Assembly (NCBI GenBank): GCA_024695475.1
Contig: JAILIC010000038.1
Coordinates: 1 to 40,800, forward strand
Direction of reading: 5' to 3'
Length of the DNA: 40,800 bases
Source of the DNA: Treponema sp.
GTDB lineage: Bacteria; Spirochaetota; Spirochaetia; Treponematales; Treponemataceae
In this document: positions 1 through 40,800 of the stretch, piece by piece
How the letters are laid out: each line of letters begins with the position of its first letter
How positions within the stretch are numbered: position 1 is the first letter of the stretch
Program-made: the position numbers and the translations under genes
Notes under the pieces: generated by a model
The model's input: only the letters and a program-made list of their open reading frames with translations
Told to the model about the DNA's origin: nothing
Database searches by the model: none

Positions 1-78
1 GATGGATATGAGCAGCTGCAGTATAAGCTGATTTTGTTTTACAGGCTTTTGAAAGCTAACGGATATATCAATGACTGA
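1..78 (+). CDS. C-terminal end of an unidentified upstream gene
   Basis: Reading frame 1 is open from the window edge and gives 25 residues ending in KANGYIND before a TGA at 76-78. It overlaps the start of the next gene by 8 bases, the kind of overlap seen between co-translated genes. In phage and plasmid replication modules the gene before a D5-type helicase is often a primase or another replication protein, but too little is visible here to assign one. Confidence 0.55.
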   Translation, partial: DGYEQLQYKLILFYRLLKANGYIND

Positions 79-1516
79 AAACGAATTTTCTAAAAATGAA
101 AGAGCTGTCCTCGAACAGATTGGCCTTGAGATGAAGGCTAATAAATACGTAAGCGGTGAAATGCAGTTTACGGATTTGACGAATACGCTTTATTTTTTGA
201 GGGCTTATCAGGATAAAATCCGCTACTGTATTACCTGGGATAAGTTTCTTGTCTGGAACGGAACTAACTGGGAAATTGATTACCGAGGTTTTGTCCAGGA
301 GAGGATTCCGATCTTTATTCATCAGATGTACAGGATTCAGCGTTATATACCAGACAGAATCTTGAAGCAGGATTTTGAAAAGCATCTTATTAAGAGTGAA
401 AGCTTCCGCCGTATTCAGGCAATTGTTGGACTTTTGAAAATGCGGCCGGAAATCAAGACGATTGAAAAAGAACTTGATACGGATAACTATCTTTTTAATG
501 TTGAAGGTCTGACGCTGAATCTGAAAAATGGGAAAGCCAAAGAGCCAAATATAAAAAATCTGATTACAAAAAAAAGCCTCTTTATTTATGACAAGGCGGC
601 TGACTGTCCAACTTGGAAAACTTTTTTGATGCAGATTTTTGATAAGGATATGCAGCTTATTAAGTTTATACAAAAAGCCTGCGGCTACACTTTAAGCGGG
701 GATGTTAGTGAGCAGTGTCTTTTTATTTTATGGGGAACTGGTGCCAACGGTAAATCTACTTTCTTGAACGTGCTTCTTCATCTGTTTGGAGACTATGGCT
801 GCAGCACTGGTATTGAGACTTTCACAAAAAAGAATAAAGAACAGAGTAATGACCTGGCACGTCTTAAAGGGTCAAGACTTGTTACTACCAGCGAAATTGA
901 ACAGGGAATCCCGATGAGTGAAAGCCTGATTAAAAGTGTTACAGGTGAAGATTCTTTAACAGCAAGATTTCTTTACGGTGAATATTTTTCATTTAAGCCG
1001 ACCTTCAAGATATTTATGGCCACTAATCATAAACCAAAAATCCGTGGTGCTGATAACGGTATCTGGCGACGTATTAAAATGATTCCTTTTACTTTCACAA
1101 TTCCGCCGGAGCAGAGAGATAAGAAACTTACGGAAAAAATGATTGCAGAAAATTCAGGAATCTTAAACTGGCTTATTCAGGGCTATGCTATGTGGAAAAA
1201 GGAAGGTCTAGAAGAGCCGGCAGCTGTTCGGCAGGCGAATGAGGAATACAGAATGGATATGGATGCTGTTGGAACTTTTGTAAATGATTGTCTTGAAATT
1301 GATGCTTCTTTAAGTTGGAGGCTTCATACTAAGATTTTGTATGAGACTTATATCAAGTGGTGTGCCAAAAATAATGAGCGTGTTATGTCTCAGAAATGGC
1401 TGGGCTTGAGGATGAGTGAGAAAGGCTTTAAGAGATTGAGTACTAACGGGCAGCGGGTGTGGCTGGGGCTGGCAGTAAAAGTAGAATGGCGAGGCGAAGA
1501 GAAAAAGAAGTGGTGA
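71..1516 (+). CDS. Phage/plasmid-type D5/P4-family helicase (SF3 AAA+)
   Basis: A 481-residue replicative helicase of the type found in prophages and integrative elements; such proteins unwind the origin of a mobile element. The Walker A sequence GTGANGKST lies at about residues 222-230, and the SF3 sensor/arginine-finger region is visible around 315-340 (FMATNHKP, then GIWRRIKMIPF). The first 190 residues carry the D5_N-like region before the ATPase. No archaeo-eukaryotic primase or zinc-binding Toprim domain is visible, so if the element encodes a primase it should be in another gene, perhaps the one ending at 78. The start ATG overlaps the upstream stop and has only a weak ribosome binding site, consistent with translational coupling. 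No integrase, capsid or portal gene is visible in the window, so this may be an element edge or a decayed element. Confidence 0.85.
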   Translation: MTENEFSKNERAVLEQIGLEMKANKYVSGEMQFTDLTNTLYFLRAYQDKIRYCITWDKFLVWNGTNWEIDYRGFVQERIPIFIHQMYRIQRYIPDRILKQDFEKHLIKSESFRRIQAIVGLLKMRPEIKTIEKELDTDNYLFNVEGLTLNLKNGKAKEPNIKNLITKKSLFIYDKAADCPTWKTFLMQIFDKDMQLIKFIQKACGYTLSGDVSEQCLFILWGTGANGKSTFLNVLLHLFGDYGCSTGIETFTKKNKEQSNDLARLKGSRLVTTSEIEQGIPMSESLIKSVTGEDSLTARFLYGEYFSFKPTFKIFMATNHKPKIRGADNGIWRRIKMIPFTFTIPPEQRDKKLTEKMIAENSGILNWLIQGYAMWKKEGLEEPAAVRQANEEYRMDMDAVGTFVNDCLEIDASLSWRLHTKILYETYIKWCAKNNERVMSQKWLGLRMSEKGFKRLSTNGQRVWLGLAVKVEWRGEEKKKW

Positions 1517-25546: not shown

Positions 25547-28240
25547 TTATTTTGCTGCTGCGATTGATTTGACCTTAAAGCTATATTTGTGGTCATTGAT
25601 GGTAAATGAAAGTTCATCACCTACCTTGTGATCCATGAGGGCATTGCCAAATGGAGACATGTACGAAATGATTCCTTTATCAGGATCTGATTCCCATGGA
25701 CCAAGGATTGTATATTTCTCATCCTGATTAGTTTCTTTGTTCAACAGAGTTGCTGTTGTTGAAAAAGAAATAACAGCAGTAGTAATTGTTGTAGGATCAA
25801 ATACAACAGCACGATTTAACTCTTCTTGCAGTTTGCTCAATGTAACATTGAGGTAGTGCTGATGCTCTTTAGCAGCTTTGTATTCAGCATTTTCTTTCAA
25901 GTCACCTTGTGCACGAGCTTCTGCAATTTCTTTTGCATTGGCTGGTATTTCAACAGTCTGAATTTGCTGAACGAGAGCTTTCTTTTCTTCAAGCTTTTTG
26001 GCTGTAACCATCATACCACGAGGAGTAGAAGATTTTTCTTCTGTTGTATGGAACTTGAAGTCAGGGTATTTTTCGAGAATACGATTACGTACTGTTGCCT
26101 TTATTGATGAATCTAAATCTGCAAGATCGTCAACCAATGTATATAAACGATTAACAGTATCTTCATCGTTGCTCAACATATGCTTGAGTAATGTATCATC
26201 TTTAAACAATAACAATGTTGCAGCCTTGTTAATCTTTTTGTTTTCAGTTGTATTAACATGGTTATTGATTTCGCGGAATGTCTGCTCGATGATGTTAATC
26301 AATGCTATGAGTTGTTTTTCGTATGGAATGTTTGCCTGAACAAACCAGTCATCATTCTGACATTCTTTAAACAGATAGATAACTGCATTACGATAGTCTC
26401 TGTAGTTTTCAAATGCTGTAATGGCCATTTTTTGTACTTTTTCTGTAAATCCTGCATTGATTAACAAAATCAACATAGATTTATCCAGTACTGTTGGGAA
26501 GAGTTTAATAAACTCATCTGACCAATTTGGCAACATTTTGATTGACTGCAAGAAGTTTGCCTTGAGAGAGGTATTCTTTGTGTCTTTCAATAATTCATAC
26601 ATTTCACGAGGATTTTCGATATCATCGTAAATCTGTTTGAATGTATATTTCATAGGATATGCCAATGAAGGAATCAAAGCACTGACCTGTTGTACGACCA
26701 AATATGCGGCTAATATCTGTTCATTGACCTTTGTAATTGTTTTTACGTAACCGGTAAAGTATGAGAACATATCAGCAAAGAGGTCGTTAGTCTTATCGGT
26801 CTCTTCGGTGTTGATATATTTCATTAAAATGTCGATACGTGCAAAGAATTGCTTTTGAGCTTTGAATTCGTTGGACAGTTTTTCTTCCTGGCTGATTTCA
26901 TGCTCGCGGACGATGTATTGATTGATGTCGTTTGGATTTACACCAAAAGTGGCATCTGTGTCAAGAATTTTCTTTGCGGCAGAATTCCATGAAGTCCATT
27001 CACCATTTGTAAGAATGGTAGGAACAAGTTCTGCTTTGATGCGTTTGAAATCGCAGCTGTTGTTGAAACTCTTAATAATGGTTCTTAATGCCCATTCTTT
27101 TTCTGCTTTAACTTTTTTTGCAAGTTCTTCACGTGGTTTTGTTGCTTTTAATACCCATATGTGATCTTTTGCAAGTGGAGTCAGAGCGTTGACTGCCATC
27201 TTGAGAGACATCTCATGGATACCGGCTTTCTTACCAAAATTGATGATTAATGTGTCACCTTCAACTTTACGGATGAGACCTACACCCCAAGAGCGGTGAA
27301 ATACGTAGTTATGTGCATCAAATGCAATATGTTTTTCAAAGTCACTGATAGCCTCAAATACGTTGCGGAAATTTTGTGCAAGGTTTGATGAGCGAATATA
27401 TTCATCGACATGACTGTGCTTTGCATATTTATTTTTGAAGCAGTCTGCAATTTCTCGACGAGCCCACATGTCTTTTTGATCAATAGAAAGAATAAGCTTT
27501 AGGATATCAATTGCAGTAGTCCATTTACCTTGTTTTTTATATTTATCATACAAATCGTGCATTAAATCTGCGCTACGATCTTCGCTGATGGTTTTTGCAA
27601 CTTTACGCTGAACCAATAAGAAAAAGTCGATCTCGTCAGGAATAAGCTCAAGAAGTTTTGCCCACAACTCTTTTACCATGTTGTAGTTTTTTGCTGTTAC
27701 ATAGCGGAGTAAGGCTTTTTTGTAAAAATCGATGGCAGTATCGATGTCGTTTTCATTTTCGTAATGTTCTGCCAACTGTTTTGCAATGTCTGCTTCTTCA
27801 AAATCAAGTTTGACGATACGTTCGTACAGTTCCCAAACTTTGTCATTGTTTTCTGATTTATAGCGCTCTGCAAGGGTTCGTAGGGCAAATTTGTTGTTTG
27901 CATCATCAGCAAGAATAGATTCGCACAAATAATCAACAACGGTTTCTTTGTGATTCTTCTGGAAGATGTCAACGAGGGTTACAAGTGAGGAATTATCCAA
28001 TGTACCTTTGCCAAGCCCGAGCATACCAGAAAGATATAATGCGATAATACTATCCTTTGAATGGGTCAGGTGTTCATCACATACTTCTTTAATGGTGTCA
28101 ACACAATTTTCTGCGCGGGTTTTTTCTACGATACCGGCAAGCTCAATGAGATTGTTTTTGGTGTAATTGCTGATTGTGGCACGTGTCCAGGTTTCTTCTT
28201 TCAGCATGTCCTGCACGGTCTTTACCAGTTCTTCAGACAT
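25547..28240 (-). CDS. greA: Giant GreA transcript-cleavage factor
   Basis: An 897-residue protein whose last 165 residues are a GreA factor, which enters the RNA polymerase secondary channel and stimulates cleavage of backtracked RNA. The GreA coiled coil shows GDLKENAEYKAAKE at 779-792 with the two tip acidic residues (D780, E783) intact, and the FKBP-like C-terminal domain follows (ILGPWESDPDKGIISYMSPFG). Ordinary GreA has about 158 residues. The first 730 are mostly helical and include TPR-like helix pairs (LAEHYENENDIDTAIDFYKKAL near 162) and a small beta region (HRSWGVGLIRKVEGDTLIINFG near 313). The long form is known in spirochaetes such as Borrelia; the role of the extension is unknown. 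AGGAG is 7 bases before the ATG. Confidence 0.9.
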   Translation of the reverse strand: MSEELVKTVQDMLKEETWTRATISNYTKNNLIELAGIVEKTRAENCVDTIKEVCDEHLTHSKDSIIALYLSGMLGLGKGTLDNSSLVTLVDIFQKNHKETVVDYLCESILADDANNKFALRTLAERYKSENNDKVWELYERIVKLDFEEADIAKQLAEHYENENDIDTAIDFYKKALLRYVTAKNYNMVKELWAKLLELIPDEIDFFLLVQRKVAKTISEDRSADLMHDLYDKYKKQGKWTTAIDILKLILSIDQKDMWARREIADCFKNKYAKHSHVDEYIRSSNLAQNFRNVFEAISDFEKHIAFDAHNYVFHRSWGVGLIRKVEGDTLIINFGKKAGIHEMSLKMAVNALTPLAKDHIWVLKATKPREELAKKVKAEKEWALRTIIKSFNNSCDFKRIKAELVPTILTNGEWTSWNSAAKKILDTDATFGVNPNDINQYIVREHEISQEEKLSNEFKAQKQFFARIDILMKYINTEETDKTNDLFADMFSYFTGYVKTITKVNEQILAAYLVVQQVSALIPSLAYPMKYTFKQIYDDIENPREMYELLKDTKNTSLKANFLQSIKMLPNWSDEFIKLFPTVLDKSMLILLINAGFTEKVQKMAITAFENYRDYRNAVIYLFKECQNDDWFVQANIPYEKQLIALINIIEQTFREINNHVNTTENKKINKAATLLLFKDDTLLKHMLSNDEDTVNRLYTLVDDLADLDSSIKATVRNRILEKYPDFKFHTTEEKSSTPRGMMVTAKKLEEKKALVQQIQTVEIPANAKEIAEARAQGDLKENAEYKAAKEHQHYLNVTLSKLQEELNRAVVFDPTTITTAVISFSTTATLLNKETNQDEKYTILGPWESDPDKGIISYMSPFGNALMDHKVGDELSFTINDHKYSFKVKSIAAAK

Positions 28241-35992: not shown

Positions 35993-36625
35993 ATGATTAT
36001 TGCGATTGATGGTCCTGCAGGAACAGGAAAAAGTACTATAGCTGGTATTATTGCTGAAAAACTTCATGTTACCTATTTAAACAGTGGTAGTTTTTATCGT
36101 GCTTTGACTATGGCTGTTTTACAGAATAAGGTTGATCTTACTGATGAAAAAGCTATATTGGATTGTTGTGCTAAACAGAAGTTGGATTATGTTAATTCAC
36201 ATTTGATTCTTAATGATGTTGATGTTGAAGCTCATTTGCATGATGATGAAGTGAGTGCTCATGCAGCTCAAGTATCTTCGATCCCTGAAGTTCGTCATTT
36301 AGTAAATGCACGTCTAAAGGAAATTACTAACTCTTTGTCGATTGTCTGTGAGGGACGCGATATGACGACTGTGGTATTCCCCTATGCGGAATATAAGTTT
36401 TATCTTGATGCATCAATTGATGTACAGGCAAAACGTCGTTTTAACCAGGGGGTAAGTAATCTGACTCTTGAAGAAATAAAAGACGCTATCAGAAAGCGCG
36501 ATGAAATTGATAAGAATAAAAAGGAAGGTGCTCTAAAAAGGGCTCCGGACGCAATATATATAGATACTTCTGACTTGACCATTGAACAAGTTTGTGAGAT
36601 AATTATATCCAAAATTAACAAATAA
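35993..36625 (+). CDS. cmk: Cytidylate kinase
   Basis: Phosphorylates CMP and dCMP with ATP. The P-loop GPAGTGKST is at residues 7-15, the CMP-binding region follows (YLNSGSFYRALT), and CEGRDMTTVVFP binds the substrate. Length 210 residues. AAGGAG is 12 bases before the ATG. It is 9 bases upstream of rpsA; the two are fused into one protein in some bacteria but are separate here. Confidence 0.94.
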   Translation: MIIAIDGPAGTGKSTIAGIIAEKLHVTYLNSGSFYRALTMAVLQNKVDLTDEKAILDCCAKQKLDYVNSHLILNDVDVEAHLHDDEVSAHAAQVSSIPEVRHLVNARLKEITNSLSIVCEGRDMTTVVFPYAEYKFYLDASIDVQAKRRFNQGVSNLTLEEIKDAIRKRDEIDKNKKEGALKRAPDAIYIDTSDLTIEQVCEIIISKINK

Positions 36626-36634
36626 GGGTTTACA

Positions 36635-38353
36635 ATGGAACAGATGGAAGTGGAAAAGAATAACACCCAGGACGCACAGGGTAGTATTCAGACACAATTA
36701 GAAGAATCATTAAAAAATCTTCCAACATTGGAAGATGGTGCACTTGTAGATGGAAAAGTAGTTCAAGTAACAGATGAATATGTATTTATTGATATCGGTT
36801 ACAAATCAGAAGGTAAGATTCCTGTTATGGAATTTGCCGGCGACTTGCCGTCTGTAGGCGATTCAGTAACTGTAGTTCTTGTTAAAAAGAACGGCCGTAA
36901 CGGTCCGGAAGTATCAAAGTCAAAAGCTGATGCAAAGCAGATGTGGAAAGATGTCCGCAAAGCATTTGATGAGAAGGGTGTTGTTGACGGAATCATTTCA
37001 AAAGTTGTAAAAGGCGGCTTTGAAGTAAATCTGGGTGGTGATATCCATGCTTTCCTTCCAATTAGTCAATCAGATAGTCAGAAAGTAGAAAAACCTGAGT
37101 CTCTCGTTGGAGTAAAGGGTAAATTCTATATAGAGCGTTTGTATTCAGATAACAAGGCTAACGTAGTTGTTAACCGTAGAAAGTATCTGGAAGAAGAAAT
37201 TGAAAAGAATCGCGATGCATTCTTTAATAATGTAAAGATCGGTGATACTGTAAAAGGTTCTGTAAAGAGCTTTACAAGCTTTGGTGCTTTTATTGATTTG
37301 GGTGGCTTTGATGGCTTGCTCCATATCAATGATATGAGCTGGGGCCATGTAACACGTCCAAAAGATTTCGTAAAGAAGGGACAGGAAATTGAACTGAAGG
37401 TTATCCGTATGGAACCTGCAGAAAAGCGTATTAACCTTTCTTTGAAGCATTTTAGCGAAGATCCATGGGTACACTTTGAAGAAAAATATCATGTAAATGA
37501 TGTTGTAAAAGGTAAAGTAACTAAGTTGACAGATTTTGGTGCTTTCATCGAATTGGAAGAAGGTATCGAAGGTCTTGCTCATATTAGTGAATTCTCTTGG
37601 ACAAAGAAAATTAACAAGCCATCTGATATGGTTAAAGTAGGTGATGAGCTTGAATGCATGATCCTTGGTTATGATATTCAGGCAGGACGTGTATCTTTGG
37701 GATTGAAGCAAGTTACTGAAAACCCTTGGGATACCATTACTGAAAAATATCCAGAAGGTACAAAGATTACCGGTAAAGTTGTTAAGCTTACCAATGTGGG
37801 TGCTTTTGTTTCTATCGAAGATGGAATCGACGGTTTCTTGCATGTAGATGATCTTTCTTGGACAAAGAAAGTAAAACATCCTGGTAGCGAACTTTCTGTA
37901 GATCAGGAAATTGAAACTGTCGTAGTTGAGTGCGATCCAGAAAACCACCGCATTCGTCTTGGTGTAAAGCAGCTTTCTGATAACCCATGGAAAGCATTTG
38001 CAGATGAGTACAAGACAGGTTCAACATTTGAAGGTGAAATCACTTCAATTACAGACTTTGGTGTATTTGTTAAGGCTCCTAACGGTATCGAAGGTTTGGT
38101 TAACAAGTCAAACTTGAGCGATGATCGTGAAGTTCCATTTGAAGAAGCTGTAAAGAAGTATCAGGTTGGTGATAAGATTAATGTTTACGTTGTAGACGTA
38201 AATGTTGAAAAAGAAAAGGCTGCCTTCTCTGTAAAAGAATTCAAGAAGAAGCAACAGCGTGATGAAATTTCACAGTATATGTCATCATCAAACAATGATG
38301 GCGATGCTGCTTTCACACTTGGTGATTTTATCAAGAATTCAAAGCAAGACTAA
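36635..38353 (+). CDS. rpsA: 30S ribosomal protein S1
   Basis: S1 brings mRNA to the 30S subunit. The 572-residue protein has six S1-type OB repeats at about 36-105, 122-190, 208-277, 293-363, 380-450 and 467-537; repeats 3-6 show the clear pattern GxVxxxxxFGAFxxxxxGxxGLxHxSxxSW. AAGGG lies 6 bases before the ATG. A full-length S1 matters for the leaderless-gene observation because leaderless messages are less dependent on S1. The regulator gene starts 23 bases downstream. Confidence 0.95.
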   Translation: MEQMEVEKNNTQDAQGSIQTQLEESLKNLPTLEDGALVDGKVVQVTDEYVFIDIGYKSEGKIPVMEFAGDLPSVGDSVTVVLVKKNGRNGPEVSKSKADAKQMWKDVRKAFDEKGVVDGIISKVVKGGFEVNLGGDIHAFLPISQSDSQKVEKPESLVGVKGKFYIERLYSDNKANVVVNRRKYLEEEIEKNRDAFFNNVKIGDTVKGSVKSFTSFGAFIDLGGFDGLLHINDMSWGHVTRPKDFVKKGQEIELKVIRMEPAEKRINLSLKHFSEDPWVHFEEKYHVNDVVKGKVTKLTDFGAFIELEEGIEGLAHISEFSWTKKINKPSDMVKVGDELECMILGYDIQAGRVSLGLKQVTENPWDTITEKYPEGTKITGKVVKLTNVGAFVSIEDGIDGFLHVDDLSWTKKVKHPGSELSVDQEIETVVVECDPENHRIRLGVKQLSDNPWKAFADEYKTGSTFEGEITSITDFGVFVKAPNGIEGLVNKSNLSDDREVPFEEAVKKYQVGDKINVYVVDVNVEKEKAAFSVKEFKKKQQRDEISQYMSSSNNDGDAAFTLGDFIKNSKQD

Positions 38354-38376
38354 TTTTACTCGATGGGTGATGCTCA

Positions 38377-39927
38377 ATGAACTCTATTACTTTAGAGAAG
38401 CTAAAGACACTCATCGATAGTATTGGTCGTATCAATTCAAACTTTTCTGATATAAACGCATTGCAACTCTGTATCTTGGAGTCTGCAATGCGTTTAGTTG
38501 TTTGTGAATCTTCATTTTTATTGATGGTCAATAAAAATGATGGTTCATTACATTGTGCAGTTGCTTTAGGATCAAAAAGTGACGATGCAAAATATATTCC
38601 TGTAGATCAAAAGAGTGTTGCCGGTTGGGTTGTAACACATAATCAGCATATTATTATTAATGAAGTTGCTAGTGATACTCGTTTTTCGCATGTTATGCAG
38701 CAGAAAACGGGGAATCGTACTAATACAATGATAGCTGTGCCTATGCGTGTAAAAGGTGAGTGTATGGCTGTAATTGAATTGGTAAATAAAACGGATAAAC
38801 AGTCTTTTGATAAAGGCGATGCTGATATACTCGAACTTTTTTGCAGTCAAGCCAGTTTGGTCTATCAAAATGCAGATTTTTACCGTATGGCACAAGAACG
38901 TGTTTCGGCACTTCAGGCTACAGTACAATCTGGTAATACATATCACCCATTTATTTCTAAAAGTACTATAATTCAGGATTTATTCCACATAGTTGAAGAA
39001 GTCTCAAAAACGGTTTCACCTATTCTTATTACTGGAGAAAGCGGTGTTGGAAAAGGGCTATTTGCTGAGCAAATACATCTTAAGAGTCCCCGTTGTAATA
39101 AACCCTTTGTTCGTGTTAATTGTGCTTCTCTGTCTCCTGACTTGCTCGATGAAGAACTTTTTGGTCATAGTGATTTTCGATCCTCCACCGATGGTCCTTT
39201 ACAGACAGCAGATGGTGGAACGCTCTTCTTTGATGAAATAAGTGCATTAAGTCCTCAACTACAAGAAAAGGTGCTCCGTCTCATCCAGACTAAGCAGTAC
39301 ACTCCAAAAGACGAGGGGATATCTGTTCCAATAGATGTGCGTATTGTAGCTTCTACAACTCGTGATTTGGAACAACTTGTAAAAGATGGGATTTTTAGAA
39401 GTGATTTGTATTACCGGTTGAATGTGTTACCCATTAATGTTCCATCATTGCGTGACCGTAAAGATGATATTGAGCCACTAGCTTTGTTTTTTCTCAAGCA
39501 ATTTAGTAATGCCACTCATAAAAATTTTACGAACATTTCTGATGGTGCTCTTTTGCAGTTGACAAAGCACTTTTGGCCGGGCAATGTTCGAGAGTTGAAA
39601 AACTGTATCGAACGTGCTTGTATCGTTGGTGTACCGCCTGTTGTTCAAAGAAACGATTTGGGGCTGTCTGTGCCTACTGATGTACATACGGTAAAAACAA
39701 CGTCAGATAATAAAGAGTTTGATACTTTTGTTGAGAATTCCGTTATGGTTGATGATGAAGACAAAACTTTAAAGTCTGCTATTGACCGTTTTAAAAAAGC
39801 CTATATAATTAAAATCCTTGATGAAACATCTTGGAACCAAACTGCCGCTGGAAAGATTTTAGGTATTCAGCGTACATATGTCTCTCGTTTATTAAATGAA
39901 TTGCATATCCGAGATGACAGGCAGTAA
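38377..39927 (+). CDS. GAF-AAA+-Fis regulator of the NtrC type lacking GAFTGA
   Basis: A 516-residue regulator with an N-terminal GAF sensor domain (about 20-165, ending KGDADILELFCSQASLVYQNA in pieces), an AAA+ ATPase (about 190-410) and a Fis-type helix-turn-helix (about 470-512, NQTAAGKILGIQRTYVSRLL). Walker A is TGESGVGKG (219-227), Walker B GGTLFFDE (280-287), and the arginine-finger region RSDLYYRLNVLPI is present. Between EELFGH (259-264) and GGTLF there are only 15 residues instead of about 20, and the GAFTGA loop that contacts sigma54 is missing. It may therefore be an ATP-dependent regulator that works without sigma54. Confidence 0.88.
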   Translation: MNSITLEKLKTLIDSIGRINSNFSDINALQLCILESAMRLVVCESSFLLMVNKNDGSLHCAVALGSKSDDAKYIPVDQKSVAGWVVTHNQHIIINEVASDTRFSHVMQQKTGNRTNTMIAVPMRVKGECMAVIELVNKTDKQSFDKGDADILELFCSQASLVYQNADFYRMAQERVSALQATVQSGNTYHPFISKSTIIQDLFHIVEEVSKTVSPILITGESGVGKGLFAEQIHLKSPRCNKPFVRVNCASLSPDLLDEELFGHSDFRSSTDGPLQTADGGTLFFDEISALSPQLQEKVLRLIQTKQYTPKDEGISVPIDVRIVASTTRDLEQLVKDGIFRSDLYYRLNVLPINVPSLRDRKDDIEPLALFFLKQFSNATHKNFTNISDGALLQLTKHFWPGNVRELKNCIERACIVGVPPVVQRNDLGLSVPTDVHTVKTTSDNKEFDTFVENSVMVDDEDKTLKSAIDRFKKAYIIKILDETSWNQTAAGKILGIQRTYVSRLLNELHIRDDRQ

Positions 39928-39982
39928 GGATGGATGTAAGGATTTGTATATATAAAACAAGTATAAAAAATGGGAGATAATT

Positions 39983-40663
39983 ATGGCTCAGAAAGAAGAA
40001 ATAAAGCAGACTGCAGCAGAAAAACTTGGTAATTTTTTATTTGCTAATCGTACTGTAGTTTTGACTTTTGTTGGTATTGTAGCAGTTTTGCTTATTGGTT
40101 ATTCAGTTGCAATTGTTGCAATTGATAAGACAAATGAAAGAGGTTTGGCACAGATTGAAGATATCGCTTTTGTGCTTACCAATAAGTCTTATGATTTGTC
40201 TGATGCTGATTTAGCTAATCGTAGTGCTGTTGCTTTAGAAAAATTACAGCCACTTGTAGCTAAAAAAGGTATCGTTGGTGTAAGAGCTAATATGCTGGCT
40301 GCAGATCTTGCTTTTTCAGATAAAAAGTATGATGACGCACGTAAGTATTATCTTGCAGCTGTAGCAGCTGGTAAAAAGTCATATACAGCACCATTATGCT
40401 ATTTTAATGCAGCAGTTTGTAGTGAAGAGCTTTCAGATGTAGATGCAGCTGTATCATATTATGAGTCTGCTATTGCTTATGTTGACTTCTTTGAGGCAAA
40501 TCATGCACAGTTTAGTATTGGACGTATCAAAGAAGCTAAAAAAGATTATGCAGGAGCTGCAGAGGCTTACCAGAAACTCTTGGATAAAAATGCAGCAGAT
40601 TCATGGGGGTCTATGGCTCGTACAAGAATGATTGCATTGAAAAACGAAGGTTCTGTACAGTAA
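39983..40663 (+). CDS. Membrane-anchored TPR protein, 226 aa
   Basis: One N-terminal membrane segment (VVLTFVGIVAVLLIGYSVAIVAI, about 29-51) without a cleavage site is followed by TPR helices (LAADLAFSDKKYDDARKYYLAA, VCSEELSDVDAAVSYYESAI, GRIKEAKKDYAGAAEAYQKLL). The layout is like YfgM-type proteins, which anchor periplasmic TPR domains at the inner membrane. GGGAGA is 7-8 bases before the ATG. It follows the regulator gene by 55 bases. Confidence 0.8.
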   Translation: MAQKEEIKQTAAEKLGNFLFANRTVVLTFVGIVAVLLIGYSVAIVAIDKTNERGLAQIEDIAFVLTNKSYDLSDADLANRSAVALEKLQPLVAKKGIVGVRANMLAADLAFSDKKYDDARKYYLAAVAAGKKSYTAPLCYFNAAVCSEELSDVDAAVSYYESAIAYVDFFEANHAQFSIGRIKEAKKDYAGAAEAYQKLLDKNAADSWGSMARTRMIALKNEGSVQ

Positions 40664-40725
40664 GATACTATCTACACCATACAATTTGTACGGTAACATT
40701 TTTTTATCATCATTGTTATAAAAGT

Positions 40726-40800
40726 ATGAACAAAAGAGCAGAAGCACAAAAACGTAAAAAAGTATATATTGCTGAGATCGTTTTATGTGTATTCTGCTTT
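40726..40800 (+). CDS. N-terminus of a protein truncated by the window end
   Basis: The frame opens at ATG 40726 and gives 25 residues: a basic N-terminus (MNKRAEAQKRKKVY) then a hydrophobic run (IAEIVLCVFCF), so a membrane or exported protein is likely. TATAAA lies only 3 bases before the ATG and no Shine-Dalgarno sequence is seen, similar to other short-leader genes in the window, although no convincing -35 box is visible. Too short to identify. Confidence 0.55.
   Translation, partial: MNKRAEAQKRKKVYIAEIVLCVFCF

Follow-up and report, generated by a model that had tools for sequence, protein, structure and literature searches.

A loop-less NtrC-type activator homologue between rpsA and a TPR gene in Treponema, and the recurrent loss of the GAFTGA-type loop at its locus

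Results

The window, by which we mean the whole 40,800-nucleotide stretch analysed here (positions 1 to 40,800 of contig JAILIC010000038.1, forward strand, Treponema sp. assembly GCA_024695475.1), carries near its end a gene for an NtrC-type activator homologue (Table 1), whose reading frame contains a single stop codon, the terminal one, compared with 30 and 61 stops in the other two frames. A first reading, made from the sequence alone, had placed this gene between rpsA and a TPR gene and had credited its product with Walker A, Walker B and arginine-finger regions. Pfam searches of the neighbours and synteny across the order bear out the first statement, and the motifs GESGVGK, GGTLFFDEI and FRSDLYYRL bear out the second. 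The AAA+ sigma54-interaction domain of the protein contains Walker A, Walker B and arginine fingers, and the protein's position between rpsA and the TPR gene, its GAF-AAA-HTH order and its QRTY recognition helix place it in the orthologue group surveyed below. The top-scoring NCBIfam model was NifA (TIGR01817), from which the protein is set apart by its score of 295.9 bits, under the cut-off of 528.85. Rfam gave no match within positions 36000-40800.

Table 1. Features of the rpsA-regulator-TPR locus in the window.
Feature	Position	Strand	Basis
rpsA (ribosomal protein S1, six S1 domains), conserved upstream neighbour	36635..38353	+	Pfam S1 6.9e-83; synteny
Loop-less bEBP homologue, GAF - AAA+ - lid - Fis-type HTH, 516 aa	38377..39927	+	ORF and Pfam
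GAF domain (aa 32-161)	38470..38859	+	Pfam GAF_2 5e-11, GAF 1.1e-9
AAA+ sigma54-interaction domain (aa 193-353)	38953..39435	+	Pfam Sigma54_activat PF00158, E 2.6e-48
Walker A GESGVGK, intact	39034..39054	+	sequence read
L1 remnant SDFRSSTDGPLQ replacing the orthologues' VKGAFTDA...GRFE; 5 residues deleted	39169..39204	+	
GGTLFFDEI, Walker B acidic pair DE kept	39214..39240	+	
L2 (pre-sensor I) loop KQYTPKDEGISV replacing conserved FExVGS	39292..39327	+	
Sensor I ASTTRD replacing AATNRD	39349..39366	+	
Arginine-finger region FRSDLYYRL, intact	39394..39420	+	
AAA+ lid domain (aa 359-432)	39451..39672	+	Pfam AAA_lid_14 8e-20
Fis-type HTH (HTH_8, aa 474-500) and recognition helix QRTYVSRL	39796..39891	+	Pfam
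TPR protein, conserved downstream neighbour	39983..40663	+	Pfam TPR_16 1.6e-10; synteny

The stretch between FGH and ADGG in the window protein is SDFRSSTDGPLQT, 13 residues long, versus 18 residues in the nearest orthologues (for example, VKGAFTDAFTDRKGRFEV in L056). L1 is therefore exactly 5 residues short and has no GAFTGA-type motif, in agreement with the sequence-only reading, which had described the interval as about five residues short and GAFTGA as absent. Additionally, L2 reads YTPKDEG at the place where FExVGS is conserved across the 89 intact full-length orthologues profiled, and sensor I reads ASTTR versus AATNR in intact orthologues. The protein thus shows the combination, loop gone and HTH kept, of the TyrR and Rhodobacter capsulatus NtrC kind.

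A structure model of the window protein (61 sequences) has a pLDDT of 89.3, falling locally at residues 261-270, the former loop site, and aligns with NtrC1 at Z 32.0 (rmsd 1.7 over 246 residues). It also aligns with VpsR at Z 28.4 (rmsd 2.0 over 240 residues), which is a structural match, and with Brucella NtrX (5m7n/5m7o/5m7p) at Z 30.1 (rmsd 3.5 over 253 residues). Brucella NtrX is not known to carry GAFTGA, and differs from the window protein in being proteobacterial and having a receiver domain. The sensor domains and targets of TyrR, DhaR, HupR, VpsR and YplP differ from those of the window protein. GAF-containing bEBPs of the NifA and FhlA type share its domain order and typically carry the loop.

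The rpsA-linked regulator was classified in 177 of the 200 genomes of the genus; the other 23 comprise loci at contig ends, genomes in which rpsA was not matched at the cut-off, two in which the regulator gene is absent or broken and seven low-completeness genomes left out of the rpsA search (G062, G149, G162, G163, G173, G177 and G204). The loop, scored as the motif G[AS][FY]TxA, is present in 90 of the 177 orthologues and absent from 87. Eighty-nine are full-length or nearly so and have both GAF and loop, and one further loop-bearing orthologue is a contig-cut fragment (L157). Eight genomes have kept GAF and lost the loop (G000, which is the window genome, G070, G075, G126, G136, G184, G192 and G208), and 79 orthologues, or 78 without the contig-cut L044, have neither, with GAF counted as lost when Walker A is preceded by fewer than 125 residues. 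The QRTY/ERTY signature of the recognition helix is found in all 177. Outside the genus, the loop is kept in 13/13 orthologues from the order's other families and in 41/41 orthologue loci read in family f5, a set that partly overlaps the 13 and in which 30 loci are the best-scoring ones and so biased to intact forms. Nine GAF-less f5 orthologues (L293-L301) keep GAFTxA and have lost the sensor without losing the loop; with these nine, and with eight loop-less forms that keep GAF, loss of GAF was rejected as the cause of loop loss. A contig scan with a single-protein query recovered one distant locus only, and the best orthologue of the window protein is 60% identical to it.

Intact loops read GAFTDA (51 of 90), GAYTDA (13), GAYTNA (11), GAYTSA (9) or GAFTNA (3), with GAFTGA, GSFTDA and GAFTSA occurring once each; for position 5 of GAFTGA, the sections of PMC3162934 devoted to this element list D as functional, in the case of FlgR, and both N and S as putatively so. 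Among the 87 loop-less forms, the Walker B DE pair is kept in 15 and the first finger arginine in 11. The standard Walker A pattern is missing in eight, and six of these eight have no recognisable P-loop (SSDLLLRK and the like). The AAA+ fold is nevertheless predicted to persist in a P-loop-less form (pLDDT 87.1; Z 22.6 and rmsd 2.4 over 219 residues against NtrC1). In one genome (G091, locus L221) rpsA and the TPR gene have no regulator between them, and another (G019, locus L220) has a broken regulator frame, so the rpsA-linked regulator is not absolutely required.

An rpsA tree of 181 rows (FastTree) divides the loop-less species into 15 maximal clades, and a tree of 76 selected rows (IQ-TREE) gives 15 state changes, at least 11 of them forced by starred, well-supported branches, both counts being taken from the tree of one gene, rpsA. 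A single origin of the loop-less rows was rejected (AU test, 46 rows, p-AU 8e-70), as was a clade of the window species with its nearest loop-less pair, L040/L041, from which it is separated by the intact L020 (20 rows, p-AU 0.0015). For 21 of 24 loop-less proteins tested, the nearest lid and HTH neighbour outside the protein's own clade is intact, the exceptions being L187, L162 and L049, whose nearest neighbour is loop-less. Taken together, the clade counts, the AU tests and the intact nearest neighbours indicate that the losses were parallel and not one event; one ancient loop-less paralogue followed by differential loss was rejected on synteny, the intact neighbours and the AU test. Synteny of the regulator is maintained in one loop-less clade that counts 55 species and has a FastTree support of 100. 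The sequence-only reading had proposed a regulator specific to the lineage and had taken intact orthologues in other treponemes as the sign of a local mutation. The exact deletion was indeed seen only in the window species, and its nearest relatives (G122, G139 and G011) are intact, but loop loss recurs about 15 times at the locus, always with the HTH kept, which leaves neither a purely local mutation nor a single lineage-specific regulator.

For the AAA+ domain and the HTH, dN/dS was computed from disjoint close pairs. The median for the AAA+ domain is 0.223 in 25 loop-less pairs and 0.027 in 16 intact pairs (p 1e-7, Mann-Whitney test on rounded values), with a few of the loop-less pairs being distant and near saturation in dS. 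Selection on the AAA+ domain is thus relaxed about eightfold in loop-less pairs, although dN/dS is still far under 1 in most. For the HTH, the medians are 0.085 and 0.062, respectively, a difference that is not significant (p 0.09), and the 12 least diverged pairs show the same contrast (AAA+ p 5e-5, HTH p 0.95). Mean identity of the AAA+ core to outgroups falls from 0.66 in intact forms to 0.47 in loop-less forms with GAF and 0.31 in those without, whereas that of the HTH is 0.56, 0.50 and 0.54, respectively. As the AAA+ domain is relaxed and the HTH is not significantly so, the selected property of the loop-less forms would appear to be DNA binding. In the window protein, HTH identity to L056 is 82% and AAA+ identity 61%, the corresponding values for the intact sister L071 being 84% and 84%. 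Divergence of the window AAA+ core is mild (its identity to an outgroup is 0.61, versus the intact mean of 0.66), and the loop loss in this lineage may therefore be recent and its consequence unsettled.

The sigma54 system is present in the same genomes. The window genome, a 3.17 Mb draft, has rpoN, and three other bEBPs encoded in it keep the loop as GAYTGA (L229), GAFTGS (a PrpR-like protein) and GAYTDA; the entries for PrpR in PMC3162934 record the change of A6 to S as functional. We found rpoN in 86/86 loop-less genomes searched, and NtrC-type paralogues keep G[AS][FY]TGA in 18/18 genomes examined, of which 15 are loop-less at the rpsA locus and three are not so classed (G104 is loop-plus, G120 and G204 are unclassified). 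Sigma54-like sites outnumber a reversed-pattern control both in 12 loop-less genomes (46 versus 13) and in 16 intact genomes (54 versus 22), and G000 alone has no such excess (8 versus 7 with a looser pattern, 4 versus 4 with a stricter one). Decay of the whole sigma54 system was rejected, given rpoN in all 86 genomes and the site excess in both classes: rpoN, the loop-bearing paralogues and the sites point to a system that is alive and that only the rpsA-linked activator has left. With L1 deleted, L2 and sensor I altered, and rpoN and other bEBPs kept, loss of sigma54 coupling in the window protein is well supported.

One of the sites counted in G000, the consensus sigma54 site TGGCACGCTCCTTGCT, was observed at positions 2266-2281 of L230 (C137:58266-58281 of the window genome, minus strand), just upstream of a 420-aa gene that presumably encodes a relative of four-carbon-acid sugar kinases and beside a bEBP that we take to be PrpR-type.

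Discussion

We consider it likely that a sigma54 activator has repeatedly been converted into a sigma54-independent DNA-binding regulator, and that the window protein represents an early stage of this conversion. The regulator gene derives from a sigma54 activator that is found, throughout the order, in the interval separating rpsA from the TPR gene. In the window species, L1 is deleted and L2 and sensor I are rewritten, with the ATP-site core, GAF and HTH kept; in most loop-less lineages GAF and Walker B have gone too, and sometimes Walker A, under an unchanged constraint on the HTH. A protein without the loop would be unable to remodel the sigma54-RNA polymerase, and its selected role would be sequence-specific DNA binding, as a repressor or a regulator of sigma70 promoters, with the AAA+ body serving as a scaffold for oligomerisation. 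ATP binding, and ligand sensing by the GAF domain, may persist in the window protein. Regulation of sigma70-type promoters is suggested by analogy with TyrR, R. capsulatus NtrC and Caulobacter NtrC. The proposal of the sequence-only reading, a sigma54-independent regulator, is accordingly strong on the loss of sigma54 coupling and analogical on action with sigma70. A search for recurrent dyads (operators) beside the regulator gene found none.

Because the HTH is conserved in intact and loop-less forms alike, the ancestral protein probably already had a sigma54-independent role, and the great ease with which the loop is lost would follow from it. One could as readily accept as doubt a broader reading, namely that the locus offers a natural series, repeated about 15 times, in which L1 and L2 go first, then GAF, then Walker B, and in some forms even the P-loop; that the ancestor had a second, sigma54-independent function set by its HTH; and that an AAA+ bEBP can serve two functions, its motor being the half it can do without.

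Several alternatives were weighed against conversion. If the sigma54 target had been lost in many species, the regulator might be drifting toward a pseudogene and the window would be a snapshot of that decay, as the eightfold relaxation of the AAA+ domain, the disappearance of GAF, Walker B and Walker A from many loop-less forms, and the absent (L221) and broken (L220) copies would allow. Such drift is unlikely, as it is at odds with an HTH signature retained in 177/177 orthologues, with an HTH dN/dS not significantly above that of intact forms, with AAA+ values far under 1 in most pairs, and with the synteny kept by the well-supported 55-species clade.

Slightly less credible is a role as partner or dominant-negative subunit, in which the protein would form mixed rings with a loop-bearing bEBP, or compete with it for sites, and so modulate sigma54 promoters. 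The window protein does keep Walker A, the Walker B DE pair and the arginine-finger residues, its predicted AAA+ fold is canonical, and it shares its genome with loop-bearing bEBPs, but the Walker B and finger residues to be expected in a mixed ring are gone in most loop-less relatives, and QRTY is absent from the five best-matching f5 paralogues checked (L302-L306). We regard it as very improbable that sigma54 is still activated through an unconventional surface: the intact Walker A, Walker B and fingers and the presence of rpoN would permit it, but both sigma54-facing loops are altered, the ATPase site is also lost in relatives, and most replacements of F3 and T4 are treated as inactive in the relevant sections of PMC3162934. 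Finally, an artefact at 39169-39213, which the sequence-only reading had named as a danger and to which a draft of 172 contigs with no second assembly of the species seen is exposed, has a negligible chance, since the change is a multiple of three that leaves the downstream frame intact and is accompanied by substitutions outside the interval, in L2 and sensor I.

Conversion at this locus has counterparts among known proteins. In the passages of PMC10274813 that concern it, Caulobacter crescentus NtrC is a bEBP with a small L1 deletion that removes GAFTGA, and regulates sigma70-type promoters. The likeness to the window protein lies in the L1 deletion without GAFTGA; on the same account, the Caulobacter protein differs in having a response-regulator N-terminus in place of GAF, in a predicted contribution of ATP binding and hydrolysis, and in an eight-residue deletion that is common to its genus, versus the repeated losses seen here. 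That source also describes R. capsulatus NtrC, where an L1 deletion goes with reported sigma70 activation that depends on ATP binding rather than hydrolysis, and states that Caulobacter NtrX lacks GAFTGA; R. capsulatus NtrC differs from the window protein in its receiver domain, its lineage and its deletion, which is larger than that of Caulobacter. TyrR, DhaR and HupR, with a defective GAFTGA element, are described as sigma70-dependent, and VpsR and YplP, likewise defective, as probably not sigma54-dependent, in the corresponding part of PMC3162934. Loop-less bEBPs are thus already known, and what is new is the recurrence at a single locus, extending to forms without the ATPase; our searches of open-licence PMC full texts gave no earlier report on this locus, or on a loop lost repeatedly inside one genus.

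In the portions of the literature drawn on here, GAFTGA loss is described one family at a time, an account compatible with a rare accident as well as with a readily accessible route of evolution. At the rpsA locus, intact, loop-less, GAF-less and ATPase-less orthologues occur in sister species with the same HTH type, and such matched orthologues make both the conversion of activator to regulator and the other role of the ancestor directly testable. The locus also carries a warning for annotation, as loop-less forms still score as Pfam Sigma54_activat, some of them with almost no motor.

Other features of the window and the locus

In the gap between the regulator and the TPR gene, a sigma70-like TTGACA / TATAAT promoter was observed by eye in L079, L091, L092, L099 and L137, where the TPR gene may have a promoter of its own. 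Upstream, cmk and rpsA are separate in the window (35993-38353), whereas in many relatives rpsA lies inside one frame of about 785-810 aa; the arrangement suggests a Cmk-RpsA fusion that appears and disappears among relatives. Elsewhere in the window, positions 25547-28240 (minus strand) encode an 897-aa protein with a TPR-like N-terminus and a C-terminal GreA/GreB transcription elongation factor, and positions 71-1516 (plus strand), at the contig end, encode a D5_N / DUF5906 / Pox_D5 primase-helicase of phage or plasmid type.
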